NCBI RefSeq assembly: GCF_002127225.1 | Contig: NZ_NFUR01000003.1 | Location: forward strand, 248,001 to 312,000 | Source: Sphingomonas sp. IBVSS2 | GTDB lineage: Bacteria > Pseudomonadota > Alphaproteobacteria > Sphingomonadales > Sphingomonadaceae | DNA length: 64,000 bases | Direction: 5' to 3' | Part shown: positions 39,179 to 42,346 of the stretch, one piece after another | How the letters are laid out: every line of letters begins with the position of its first letter | How positions within the stretch are numbered: position 1 is the stretch's first letter | Made by a program: the position numbers and the translations under genes | Notes under the pieces: model-generated | What the model saw: the letters and a program-made list of their open reading frames with translations, nothing else | What the model was told of the DNA's origin: nothing | Database searches by the model: none

Positions 39179-39472
39179 ATGGCGTACGATCCGGGTGCAA
39201 TCGATGCGACGCTGGCGGCGGCGGTGGGCGACGAGCCCGCGCTGATCGCCGAGCTGCGCGAGGCCTTTCACGACGGGGTGCAAAGGTGCCTCGAGACCAT
39301 GAAGACCGCCGAGAGTCCCGATGGCTGGGCGGCGGCGGCGCTGCGCCTCAAGGGCCTTTCGGCCAGCTTCGGCGCGATCCGGCTGATGGCGCTCGCCACC
39401 GAAGCGGCCAATGGACAGGCGCATGACGGCGCGATACTCCGGCGTCTCCATCGGGCGGTCGACCGACTCTGA
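39179..39472 (+). CDS. Hpt-like protein lacking the phosphohistidine
   Basis: This 97-residue all-helical protein fits the histidine phosphotransfer fold: an N-terminal helix AALIAELREAFHDGVQRCL and a core ALRLKGLSASFGAIRL (about residues 54-69). In active Hpt domains the pattern is A-H-x-L-K-G. Here the histidine position is Leu55, so phosphotransfer by the normal route is not possible. It may bind a response regulator without passing phosphate. It is divergent from the coiled-coil gene (73 bases) and lies upstream of the secreted triplicate. Confidence 0.7.
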   Translation: MAYDPGAIDATLAAAVGDEPALIAELREAFHDGVQRCLETMKTAESPDGWAAAALRLKGLSASFGAIRLMALATEAANGQAHDGAILRRLHRAVDRL

Positions 39473-39546: not shown

Positions 39547-40434
39547 ATGCGCAAGCTGGCCATCGGTCTCGCCTTTGTTCTCGCCACGATTTCCGGCGGC
39601 GTCGCGCAGGGACAGCAGGCGCCGGGCGCCGGCCAGGATAGCGGCATCCTTGTCGAGGGCCGCAAGCAGGGGCCCCGGAAAGAGGCGCGGCGCTTCGTCG
39701 AGCGGATCGTCACGACCACCAAGGATCAGATTTCGCGCTTCAACGATCCGGTGTGCCCGGTGGTGCTGGGGCTGACGCCGCCCTATGCCAAGGCGATCGT
39801 CAAGCGGTTCCGCGAGGTCTCGGTGGAGGTCGGCGCCGAGGTCGATCGGGACGAGAAATGCTATCCGAACGTCTTCGTGATCGTCGCAGCGGATGCCGGC
39901 GCGATCATCAATCAGCTGCGCGAGAAATATCACGGCTTCTTCCGCGACCTTGCCTATGACGACAAGCGCACCGCTCTTGACGAGGGGCCGGTGCGTGCCT
40001 GGCGGGTGTCCGAGGAACTCGACCAGACCGGCAGGCCTGGGGCGCAAGATGCGGATGGCGTGCGCAGTTTCCGCGGTATCGATCCCGGCTCGCGTATCTC
40101 GCTCTCGACGCAGCAGGCAACCTATGCCGCGGTGTTGGTAATCGACGTCAAGGCGATCGACGAGAAGTCGGTGGGGCAGATCGCCGACTATGTCGCCATG
40201 CGCGTGCTCGCCGGGGCGCGTCCGCCCAAGGAAGGCGGACGGCTCGATACGATCCTGACCCTGTTCGACGAGGATGCCGTCGCCCCGGAGGGGCTGACCC
40301 AGGTCGACCGCAGCTTCCTCACGGGCATCTATCAGATGCAGGCCAATGCCCGGCTCGGCAGCCAGGCCGGCACGATCGCCGATCGGATCGTGCGGGACAC
40401 CCGGGAAGCCGGAACGGCGAAGAAGCCCCGTTAG
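39547..40434 (+). CDS. Secreted triplicate family, copy 1
   Basis: This protein of about 295 residues (ATG 39547 after GGGGAA; an ATG at 39532 would add five) has a signal peptide ending near GGVAQG. Family marks, shared with the next two genes, are GILVEGRK, the segment RFNDPVCPVVLGL, KCYPNVFVIVAADAGAIINQLR, ADYVAMRVLAGARPP and TILTLFD. The two cysteines (PVCP, KCYPN) are in all three copies and could form a disulfide. No known catalytic motif. Function unknown; periplasmic or surface location expected. Confidence 0.72.
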   Translation: MRKLAIGLAFVLATISGGVAQGQQAPGAGQDSGILVEGRKQGPRKEARRFVERIVTTTKDQISRFNDPVCPVVLGLTPPYAKAIVKRFREVSVEVGAEVDRDEKCYPNVFVIVAADAGAIINQLREKYHGFFRDLAYDDKRTALDEGPVRAWRVSEELDQTGRPGAQDADGVRSFRGIDPGSRISLSTQQATYAAVLVIDVKAIDEKSVGQIADYVAMRVLAGARPPKEGGRLDTILTLFDEDAVAPEGLTQVDRSFLTGIYQMQANARLGSQAGTIADRIVRDTREAGTAKKPR

Positions 40435-40455
40435 CATCGGGGTCCGGCGCTGCCG

Positions 40456-40500
40456 GATGGACAGGCCCGGCTGCGCGCGATACTCCCATCGGGCGAGAGA
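40456..40500 (+). repeat. Duplication scar related to the 3' end of the Hpt-like gene
   Basis: This stretch matches 39411-39462, the end of the Hpt-like gene, in three blocks: ATGGACAGGC, GCGCGATACTCC and CATCGGGCG, with a seven-base gap and scattered changes. In both places the block lies about 80-120 bases before the start of a triplicate gene. It looks like a leftover of the tandem duplication that made copy 2, carrying along a piece of the neighbouring gene. Confidence 0.6.
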
Positions 40501-40551
40501 TCGGTTCAGCCGGCGCATTCGACGCGGAGAGGCCTGGGAAGGATCGACTCT

Positions 40552-41400
40552 ATGCGCATGCCGTTTTGCGTGACCTCGCTTTTGCTGCTCTGCGTGGCCG
40601 GCGTGCCCCCAGTCCATGCCCAGGATGCCAAGCCGGCGCAGGACGGCGGCATCGTCGTAACCGGCAAGGGCCCCGAGCCGATCGGAAAGGCCCGGCGCTA
40701 TCTCCGTCAGGTCCTGGAGAGCGACAGCGGCCAGCTTGCGCGTTTCATCGATCCGGTCTGTCCGCTCGTCCTCGGCCTGCCCGAGCGCTTCCGGGCACCG
40801 ATCGACGAGCGTTTCCGCATCGTCGCCGCGGCGAGTTCAGTTCGCTTCGCCAAGGGGAAATGCCGGCCGAACCTGATGATCGTGTTCGCCGACAATGCCG
40901 ACGCGTTGATCGAGACGATGCGCAAGCGCCGCAATGCCGCCTTCGCCAATCTGGACGAGGGCGCGCTGCGCGACGCGTTCAAGGCAGGGCCGATCCATGC
41001 CTGGCGCCTGGTCGTGACGCGGGACGACATGGGCAATATGTCCGCCGGGGACGAGGATCCCGATTCCCCGGTCGTCTTCGAGAGCGAGACCCAGACGGTC
41101 GCGATCAACTCGGTGATCGTGATGGACAAGCGGGCCGCCCAGGGCAAATCGGTACGCCAGATCGCCGACTACGCCGTGATGCGTACGCTGGCGGGCGCGC
41201 GGCCGCCCGACAAGGGATCGATCGCCGCCGCTTCGATCCTGTCGCTCTTCGACCCCGCGGTGGTGCCGCCGCCGGTGGAGATCACCGATATGGACCTGGG
41301 CCTGCTCACCGGGCTCTATCGGTTGCGGGATCCCTATGCGCAGGGCGGGGACCAAGCCTATCGGATCTCGCGCGCGATGGGGACGGGCAGGCCGCGCTAG
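40552..41400 (+). CDS. Secreted triplicate family, copy 2
   Basis: This 282-residue paralogue has a signal peptide (residues 1-22, …VPPVHAQ) followed by DGGIVVTGKG, RFIDPVCPLVLGLPERF, KCRPNLMIVFADNADALIETMR, ADYAVMRTLAGARPPDKG and SILSLFDP. A middle insert (MSAGDEDPDSPVVFES) is longer than in copy 1. The cysteine pair is conserved; the extra cysteine in the signal peptide is cleaved. It starts 117 bases after copy 1, from which it is separated by a duplication scar. Function unknown. Confidence 0.72.
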   Translation: MRMPFCVTSLLLLCVAGVPPVHAQDAKPAQDGGIVVTGKGPEPIGKARRYLRQVLESDSGQLARFIDPVCPLVLGLPERFRAPIDERFRIVAAASSVRFAKGKCRPNLMIVFADNADALIETMRKRRNAAFANLDEGALRDAFKAGPIHAWRLVVTRDDMGNMSAGDEDPDSPVVFESETQTVAINSVIVMDKRAAQGKSVRQIADYAVMRTLAGARPPDKGSIAAASILSLFDPAVVPPPVEITDMDLGLLTGLYRLRDPYAQGGDQAYRISRAMGTGRPR

Positions 41401-41479
41401 CGGGCTTCACCGGCAGAGCAGGGGGATGCTATATCGATGGCAGGCCCGATTTCACGGGAATGCGATGGGAGTGAATGGC

Positions 41480-42346
41480 GTGCGCATGGTCCTGATCGGT
41501 TTCGCTCTGGCGATCGTCGCCACCGGCACGGCGCAGGCGCAGGACAAGCCCGCCGACGATCCCAGCATCGTGGTTCGCGGGCAGAAGGGCGTTCCGCCGC
41601 GCGAAGCCCGCAAGTTCGTCCGCCAGGTGGTGACCAGCACCGAGGGGCAGCTCGCGCGCTTCGTCGACCCGGTCTGCCCGTTCGTGCTCGGCCTGCCGCG
41701 GCAATATGCGATGGTGGTCGAGGATCGCATTCGCGACGATGCCCGGCAGGCCGGGATCAGGACCGGAGCGGAGGGCAAGTGCCAACCCAATCTGGTGATA
41801 ATGGTCGCCGACAATGCCGATGCGGTGGTCAGGAAGCTCCGCCAGAAGTTCAGCGGCCTGTTCCTGGGCGTGAGCGCCAAGGAAATGAGCCGGGCGATGC
41901 GCGAGGGGCCGGTGCATGTGTGGAGCGCGGTGCAGGTGCGCAACGAGAACGGCCAGGCGCCCCGCCAGACCGAGTCGGACGGCCCGCCGACGCTGCGGGT
42001 CTATGGCGCGTCGCTCGTCGATCTCCAGACCCAGCAGGCCGTGCTCCAGTCGATCATGGTCCTCGACGCGGATGCCCTGCTCGGCAAGACGCTGACCCAG
42101 ATTTCGGACTATGTCGCGATGCGCACCCTGGCCGGGGCTCGCCCGCCGCGCGAAGGGGTGGAGGCGAACACGATCCTCACGCTGTTCGATCCCCAGGGCG
42201 CGCCGCCGCCCGCGATGACGGGAATCGACCGCGGTTTCCTCACCGGGCTCTACAAGGTGCGCCCGAACGGCACCTCGGTCACGCAGATGAGCACCATTTC
42301 GCGCCAGATCGTGAAAGATTCGAAGCCGCGCACGGAAAGGGAATGA
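41480..42346 (+). CDS. Secreted triplicate family, copy 3
   Basis: This 288-residue paralogue starts at GTG 41480 (GGGAG eight bases upstream; the N-terminus VRMVLIGF then aligns with MRKLAIGL of copy 1; an ATG at 41465 is an alternative). The signal peptide ends near GTAQAQ. Shared marks are PSIVVRGQKG, RFVDPVCPFVLGLPRQY, KCQPNLVIMVADNADAVVRKLR, SDYVAMRTLAGARPPREG and TILTLFDP. It ends nine bases before the convergent VWA gene. The IVV-x-G motif after the signal resembles the plug start of TonB receptors (IVVTG). Confidence 0.72.
   Translation: MRMVLIGFALAIVATGTAQAQDKPADDPSIVVRGQKGVPPREARKFVRQVVTSTEGQLARFVDPVCPFVLGLPRQYAMVVEDRIRDDARQAGIRTGAEGKCQPNLVIMVADNADAVVRKLRQKFSGLFLGVSAKEMSRAMREGPVHVWSAVQVRNENGQAPRQTESDGPPTLRVYGASLVDLQTQQAVLQSIMVLDADALLGKTLTQISDYVAMRTLAGARPPREGVEANTILTLFDPQGAPPPAMTGIDRGFLTGLYKVRPNGTSVTQMSTISRQIVKDSKPRTERE

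Follow-up and report, generated by a model that had tools for sequence, protein, structure and literature searches.

Here, we have analyzed a window of 64,000 nucleotides from Sphingomonas sp. IBVSS2 (contig NZ_NFUR01000003.1, positions 248,001 to 312,000) and found that three tandem genes in it, lying between window positions 39547 and 42346, encode an undescribed family, which seems to be a remote offshoot of the DUF2927/metzincin fold with a known type of motif, resembling the TonB box, in a new setting. TonB energizes receptors and is exploited by bacteriocins. On balance, we believe that the family proteins may well be soluble periplasmic clients of TonB, which would combine a pseudo-metzincin domain with a TonB box and work as TolB does with TolA. 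Our computations support the homology of the three genes, the class of fold, the absence of the zinc motif, the location of the box and its resemblance, lineage by lineage, to the boxes of receptors; export, TonB binding, a partner and the force acting on it are inferred.

Three homologous genes of one family

The three genes are plus-strand open reading frames (ORFs) in series, and their translation shows no internal stop. Copy 1 (P0001, 295 amino acids) lies at 39547-40434 and was characterized by translation, alignment and relatives in other genomes as having a signal-peptide-like start, a TonB-box-like tail and a pseudo-metzincin domain. Copy 2 (P0002, 282 amino acids; 40552-41400) is defined by translation and alignment, and copy 3 (P0003, 288 amino acids; 41480-42346) by translation and an AlphaFold model. 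The start codon of copy 3 is GTG, with an ATG two codons downstream (41486) as the other candidate. The three proteins align end to end, copies 2 and 3 being 36% and 42% identical to copy 1, respectively. When the IBVSS2 genome was searched with copy 3, the other two copies were recovered (E-values of 6.1e-66 and 4.0e-59; 41% and 43% identity) and no fourth copy was found at E ≤ 0.01. The homology of the three genes is far above chance.

An earlier note, based on the letters of this DNA, had described three consecutive homologous genes that share several motifs and a conserved cysteine pair, and the translation, whole-length alignment and genome search agree with this description. The motifs common to the three proteins are ILVEG/IVVTG/IVVRG, DPVCPxVLGL, KCxPN, [AS]DYxxMRxLAGARPP and [TS]IL[TS]LFD. 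The two cysteines (Cys66 and Cys101 in copy 3 numbering, within DPVCP at 41666-41680 and KCQPN at 41777-41791 on the plus strand) are invariant in all aligned members, that is, in 77/77 rows of alignment A4 and 55/55 rows of the more diverse alignment A2, which together contain 122 distinct sequences. One small detail of the description needed revision: the T/SILxLFD motif had been taken as the end of the proteins, but 48-54 residues lie C-terminal of TILTLFD, among them a TxxDxxxLxxLY helix whose Asp and Tyr are invariant. The IVVxG-like start had been noticed, but its likeness to a TonB box had been missed. The starts of all three proteins are signal-peptide-like, with a basic beginning, a hydrophobic core and an A-x-A-Q-like cleavage site recognized by eye.

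The three proteins matched no family in NCBIfam and none in Pfam, save for one chance-like match (E 0.04). For DUF2927 (PF11150), there was no Pfam match to them at E ≤ 1, the gathering score not being reached, and the PF11150 profile had no match in the IBVSS2 genome. A scan of 55 members against Pfam and NCBIfam gave matches of one or two members per family at E 0.0024 or weaker, which were taken as chance except for DUF2927 (one member in Pfam, E 0.0082). Among PDB sequences, copy 3 had no match and the best matches of the family profile (E 0.12-0.7) were taken as chance. PADLOC gave no defence-system match for the family proteins, and in PHROGs the only match was that of copy 3 to phrog_31033 (E 0.0025), whose function is not assigned. 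DUF2927 was not named in any open-access paper that we found. The view of the earlier note that the family is undescribed, with no recognizable family or motif, is therefore upheld with respect to Pfam and NCBIfam; with respect to the fold it is incomplete, in view of the probable kinship with DUF2927 and metzincins described below.

Predicted fold and loss of the zinc site

The AlphaFold2 model of copy 3, built on 77 rows from the window and related loci, had a mean predicted local distance difference test score (pLDDT) of 90.8 and a predicted template modelling score of 0.85. Copy 1 was modelled from three sequences only (pLDDT 41.5), and the confident fold model is that of copy 3 alone. In a structural comparison of this model using VIA-align 2, 260 chains reached Z 2, and all 50 listed entries are, by name, metzincins, including matrix metalloproteinases (MMPs), karilysin, myroilysin and bacterial alkaline proteases. 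The best match was 1mmp (MMP-7; Z 9.0, root mean square deviation 3.5, 146 aligned residues within model residues 49-260, 12% identity). Among viral models, Foldseek found nothing at E ≤ 0.001, the best match being a phage Zn-dependent protease (E 5.9e-3).

An independent line of evidence came from profile comparison with 11 DUF2927 proteins of other alphaproteobacteria, several of whose rows are trimmed and do not include the true N-terminus. In hhalign, the 55-row family alignment matched these proteins with a probability of 94.9 (E 4.7e-8, 202 columns), and the 77-row alignment with a probability of 89.5 (E 2e-6). At the helix concerned, three of the 11 DUF2927 rows (L142, L148 and L149) read HExxHxxGxxGH and most others CxxEExxQxLG, and one row (L139) lacks the Glu. 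Since the HExxHxxGxxGH motif is present in some of its members, DUF2927 itself is probably zincin-like and in part degenerate. Based on the model and the profiles, our family looks like distant, catalytically dead kin of DUF2927 and the metzincins.

Examination of the putative zinc site supported this view. HExxH was present in none of the rows of A4 (0/77) or A2 (0/55), and hence in 0/122 distinct sequences, and in no alignment column did the share of His exceed one third. At the position of the metzincin HExxHxxG helix, the alignment and hhalign place QIADYVAMRVLA in copy 1 (40177-40212) and QIADYAVMRTLA in copy 2 (41158-41193), and the model and hhalign place QISDYVAMRTLA in copy 3 (42098-42133; model helix 205-217), all on the plus strand. 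In the hhalign alignment, Asp210 of copy 3 pairs with the first His/Glu of DUF2927, Tyr211 with its catalytic Glu and Met214 with its second His/Gln, in a register that should be regarded as approximate. The residues of this helix are highly conserved in A4 (Q207 77/77, D210 77/77, Y211 74/77 with Tyr or Phe in 77/77, M214 76/77 and R215 75/77) and somewhat less so in A2 (Q207 44/55, D210 52/55, Y211 45/55, M214 48/55 and R215 45/55). The absence of HExxH from all 122 sequences suggests that the family is a pseudo-protease, in which a largely fixed Q-x-x-D-Y-x-x-M-R set has taken the place of the residues for zinc binding and catalysis. Further towards the C-terminus, the TIL stretch seems to lie roughly where the Met-turn would be expected, and Asp250 and Tyr258, which are invariant in both A4 and A2, pair with invariant residues of DUF2927. 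In matrixins, the helix with the counterpart of Asp250/Tyr258 comes after the Met-turn. As these two residues seem to belong to a structural helix shared with DUF2927, they need not be catalytic.

A TonB-box-like motif in the N-terminal tail

Between the cleavage site and the domain, I/V-V-V-x-G/A is the most conserved stretch (column conservation in 60 sequences: I30 0.80, V31 0.75, V32 0.93 and G34 0.75). By a loose pattern, the box occurs in 115 of the 122 family sequences, and its fifth position is Gly or Ala in 113 of these 115. In the window, motif tests identified the plus-strand boxes ILVEG in copy 1 (39646-39660), IVVTG in copy 2 (40651-40665) and IVVRG in copy 3 (41567-41581). The copy 2 box is the same as the commonest receptor box of its own genome (11/20 examined). 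The first 39 residues of the copy 3 model form neither helix nor strand, and the box occupies residues 30-34.

To characterize receptor boxes, we used Plug matches, which numbered 77, 105 and 62 in three genomes, the first being IBVSS2. The receptor set of IBVSS2 was made up of the 20 best-scoring of its 77 matches after one at a contig end had been left out, and all 20 N-termini examined had a box. In the same genome, 44 out of 63 IVVT[GA] sites fall 17-95 bp before a Plug match, compared with 3 sites in total for a reversed-pattern control. The other 19 sites comprise one in copy 2, five in receptor-like proteins (two confirmed by sub-threshold Plug matches, one that gave no match when scanned and two assigned by eye only), six that by eye are chance or cytoplasmic occurrences, and seven in other exported- or envelope-looking proteins. 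Such a box has been shown to matter in Sphingobium SYK-6: in its IIVT box, according to PMC6874591, Ala at the V and T positions reduced receptor function and both replacements together abolished it. The parts of the open-access literature that matched our searches contained no description of an endogenous protein, other than a receptor, that has a TonB box.

Among signal-peptide-like genes of the Sphingomonadales loci and the window, the motif was found in 47/62 family genes versus 6/384 others. Two of these six are receptors by eye, and the remaining four (out of 382 non-receptors) include none that is convincing by eye. A cruder ORF set gave a similar result (59/79 family genes versus 5/683 others). 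At loci of three other families of the class (f58, f70 and f12), which had mostly been retrieved around receptors, the motif occurred in 9/11 family genes and 48/114 others; by eye, the 48 are nearly all receptors, plus one TraB/GumN protein. In the 11 DUF2927 rows, the first 90 residues contained no TonB-box-like motif, several of these rows being trimmed as mentioned above.

We also compared the residue at position -3 of the box between lineages. In boxed receptors of Sphingomonadaceae, it was hydrophobic in none of 20 in IBVSS2, 0/10 in g48 and 0/6 in g25 (10 examined), whereas in f58, f70 and f12 it was hydrophobic in 28/29 (30 examined), 27/27 (30 examined) and 4/9 (10 examined), respectively. 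The family members behaved similarly: 1/103 in Sphingomonadales, 4/4 in f58, 7/7 in f70 and 1/1 in f12. The sequence of the f12 member is VESVTVSG; VES is also the commonest triplet in front of f12 receptor boxes, where it occurs in two of nine. Position -3 of the family boxes appears to track that of the receptor boxes between lineages, and as a pattern in the sequences this is strong.

Several proteins outside the family also carry the motif. A divergent MlaA-domain protein of IBVSS2 (L176; G000:C3, approximately 382006-382700, minus strand) has DTIVVTASS in a long P/A/Q-rich N-terminus before the MlaA domain. MlaA as a general TonB-box protein was rejected, as the box was present in 1 of 29 N-termini examined (30 matches, one partial omitted); the 28 boxless N-termini come from other families of the order, and the five other sampled genomes of IBVSS2's own family had no MlaA match. 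A TraB/PrgY/gumN protein of genome G389 (PF01963, E 3.9e-15; L245:294-1283, minus strand) has a signal-peptide-like start followed by VDEIIVTARR, which resembles the TonB box of the receptors of that lineage, although the protein itself is no receptor. In addition, two small proteins of IBVSS2 (L173, G000:C3:17358; L178, G000:C4:175063) have a double-glycine-type leader (AGGWG, by eye) with IVVT boxes downstream, twice in one of them, and no Pfam match; their sequences resemble those of bacteriocin-type peptides equipped with TonB boxes. Finally, IVVT[GA] lies in the linker of a double aspartyl-protease-like protein (L170, G000:C1:827130) and in a proline-rich region of a TPR protein (L177, G000:C3:423915), so the motif is not confined to the N-terminus.

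Distribution and evolution of the family

Using the profile of the three copies, the family was detected in 11 of the 61 genomes of a set of relatives, IBVSS2 included, and, across the order, in 87 of the 296 genomes sampled, where it occurred in 23 of 79 genera, all within the family to which IBVSS2 belongs (f1). In a sample of the class, it was present in 7/289 genomes, five of which belong to f58, f70 and f12, and a wider profile identified it in 11/299 genomes of a phylum sample, all of the same class. Scanning named genomes turned up 73 loci, by title nearly all from Sphingomonas and related genera, and tandem pairs and triples of family genes recur across genomes. It should be noted that one record titled Bacillus sp. 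2B10 (L093, RPSH01000012.1) bears a clear family member and is probably mislabelled or contaminated. Two family genes (L095:5986-6840 and L131:4316-5181) are broken by a frame change or stop in single genomes and are probably pseudogenes or sequencing errors. In plasmid records, we found two distant relatives, one annotated as 'hypothetical protein' and the other lacking annotation, and no near relative.

The nearest relative of the window locus is that of Sphingomonas leidyi DSM 4733 (L060), whose copies are 94%, 90% and 99% identical. Sixteen syntenic loci share an upstream coiled-coil-like gene, 13 of them together with a downstream VWA/CoxE gene. Copy number, the variation of which had been raised in the earlier note, ranges from one to three at this site: three copies in three loci (the window, L060 and L064), two in five and one in eight, although one of the single-copy loci (L069) stops approximately 250 bases past the gene and a further copy may be lost beyond its end. 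Directly upstream of copy 1, this syntenic block contains a 97-amino-acid gene (39179-39472, plus strand), which by eye resembles an HPt phosphotransfer domain and is present in 14 loci including the window; the synteny comparison gave no evidence of a functional link to the family.

In a tree of 31 proteins, window copies 1, 2 and 3 fall into separate groups, each with other species (support 100/99, 100/100 and 99/100, respectively); a long-branch warning applies to other parts of this tree. Since each copy's group includes other species, the paralogues are probably older than these species and have been patchily retained. Pairwise ratios of non-synonymous to synonymous substitution rates (dN/dS) were 0.05-0.34 for family copies (8 comparisons) and 0.01-0.26 for neighbouring genes (18 comparisons). 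Fourteen of the 18 neighbour values were below 0.12, and the four at or above 0.14 belong to what are presumably an RNase J-like gene (two) and a short DUF1467-like gene (two). Thus, the family is under purifying selection, with weaker constraint or faster evolution than its neighbours for most copies. No positive selection on the copies is seen in these values, and the suggestion of the earlier note that strong drift between the copies reflects selection for different partners is not supported by them.

Proposed function and alternative explanations

We propose the following mechanism. The protein would be exported, with cleavage near the A-x-A-Q site seen by eye, and then be retained in the periplasm or released. 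The metzincin-like domain would bind rather than cut, given that its zinc-binding and catalytic residues are replaced. The coil between signal peptide and domain would present a TonB box like those of the organism's own receptors, and the C-terminal domain of TonB might grip this box through strand pairing, as in receptors. The folded domain would hold a partner near the outer membrane, and ExbBD-TonB could pull this partner loose or move it. Alternatively, the free box might merely compete with receptors for TonB.

A number of observations weigh against this explanation. With regard to the fold, Foldseek against PDB found nothing at E ≤ 0.001, the best metzincin (E 0.063) ranking behind an unrelated row (E 0.046), and a Z of 9 is barely above the 7-8 that VIA-align notes as typical for models with no clear matches. 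As Foldseek alone is not significant, the fold assignment rests on the consistency of the VIA-align 2 list together with the independent profile comparison. With regard to the box, 7 of 122 members lack it by the loose pattern and 15 of 62 in the stricter count. Thr occupies the fourth place in 67 of the 115 boxed family sequences versus nearly all receptor boxes examined in IBVSS2; in its stead, copy 1 has Glu and copy 3 has Arg. The copy 3 box spans blocks of pLDDT 66 (residues 21-30) and 83 (residues 31-40), which indicates coil that is not plainly disordered. Pro precedes the box in 30/103 Sphingomonadales members and in 0/20 receptors of IBVSS2, although g25 receptors do have Pro at this place. 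The lineage pattern at position -3 may be one inherited change, and with so few lineages it counts for little as a number of independent events. In addition, IVVT[GA] occurs in some non-receptor proteins of IBVSS2, not always near the N-terminus, and so the motif could serve something besides TonB. Signal peptides were judged by eye and with a crude rule of our own rather than by a predictor. Finally, no gene partner or operon is conserved across the loci, and neighbours are common only within syntenic groups.

The main rival explanation is that these proteins are periplasmic pseudo-proteases that act as inhibitors, chaperones or binding proteins and have no TonB role, IVVxG being a fusion relic of the receptor signal-peptide region or a linker shared by exported sphingomonad proteins. 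The predicted fold and the missing zinc motif suit a binding role, many family boxes lack Thr, and the motif is also seen in the MlaA-like, aspartyl-protease-like and TPR exported-looking proteins mentioned above. However, the motif was found in just four of 382 other non-receptor signal-peptide-like genes, and the box is the most conserved piece of the tail and varies between lineages in step with the receptors. We regard this explanation as rather unlikely, though as the strongest of the alternatives.

The remaining two are less likely. One is that TonB uses the box to push or pull the protein itself through a receptor, so that it is secreted or imported in a TonB-dependent manner. Precedents can be found in passages of PMC11658791, in which bacteriocins have TonB boxes outside receptors, and of PMC6434023, in which the Myxococcus protease PopC needs the TonB system for its secretion through Oar; patchy copy number and rather fast evolution would also fit antagonism. 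On the other hand, as far as those passages of PMC6434023 describe the PopC system, its TonB box is in Oar and not in PopC, and PopC has no signal peptide, whereas our family has signal-peptide-like starts. Moreover, neither a toxin family in Pfam or PADLOC nor a conserved partner gene was found, a result that holds for known toxin and immunity types. We regard this route as improbable. The other is that the proteins are active enzymes, in which Gln207, Asp210, Tyr211, Met214, Arg215, Asp250 and Tyr258 form a novel catalytic site on the metzincin fold. This would account for the near invariance of these residues in A4 (77/77 for Asp250 and Tyr258), but the drop of Q207, Y211 and R215 in the diverse A2 and the pairing of Asp250 and Tyr258 with DUF2927 invariants in an apparently structural helix make it very doubtful.

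Beyond this family, and more tentatively than for the TonB-client role itself, it is possible that endogenous soluble periplasmic proteins of sphingomonads and some other alphaproteobacteria form a class driven by TonB via boxes of their own, as TolB is driven by TolA. The pseudo-metzincins would be the largest branch found here, and the MlaA protein of IBVSS2 and the TraB/GumN protein of L245 would be included. If the boxes work, the family would add a second group to the clients of TonB, with consequences for how the many receptors of such cells share it; and if the wider class is true, TonB powers periplasmic work besides receptor uptake. The kinship proposed here, if true, would also provide a probable fold for the family and, by extension, for DUF2927, and would explain unnamed proteins in the 87 genomes of the order in which the family was found.

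Comparison with known systems

The term 'DUF' is absent from a review of pseudopeptidases (PMC11266112), and its matching parts do not deal with such a family. The closest known relative appears to be DUF2927, which shares profile similarity across the domain and a TxxDxxxLxxLY-type helix with our family. They differ in that the CxxEExxQxLG or HExxHxxG helix of DUF2927 corresponds to QxxDYxxMRxLA in the family, and in the position of the cysteine pair (Cys147/Cys180 in DUF2927, Cys66/Cys101 in the family). The matrixin branch of metzincins, such as MMP-7 and karilysin, is similar in predicted fold, the 146 residues aligned to 1mmp being set against the 166 residues of that structure, whereas the family lacks their HExxHxxGxxH zinc site.

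With regard to TonB, the TonB-dependent receptors likewise carry a lineage-type box in a short stretch after their signal peptide, a likeness by sequence in which the family often lacks the Thr. Unlike them, the family has no Plug match or 22-strand barrel; its proteins of 282-295 residues have an alpha/beta model. Among non-receptor proteins with a TonB box of their own, the TonB-dependent bacteriocins colicin M, pyocin S2 and klebicin are described in passages of PMC11658791 and PMC12927319. These are toxins that act on other cells, whereas the family is chromosomal, has signal-peptide-like starts, is present in many genomes and has no recognized toxin or partner gene. Finally, passages of PMC8928145 and PMC12927319 describe TolB, which is soluble and periplasmic, as pairing with TolA through a disordered N-terminus, in a manner analogous to TonB and TonB boxes. 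TolB is a beta-propeller and the family is predicted to be alpha/beta and metzincin-like; the analogy between them, which is our own, would lie in a soluble periplasmic protein offering its N-terminal tail to the energy-transducing partner.

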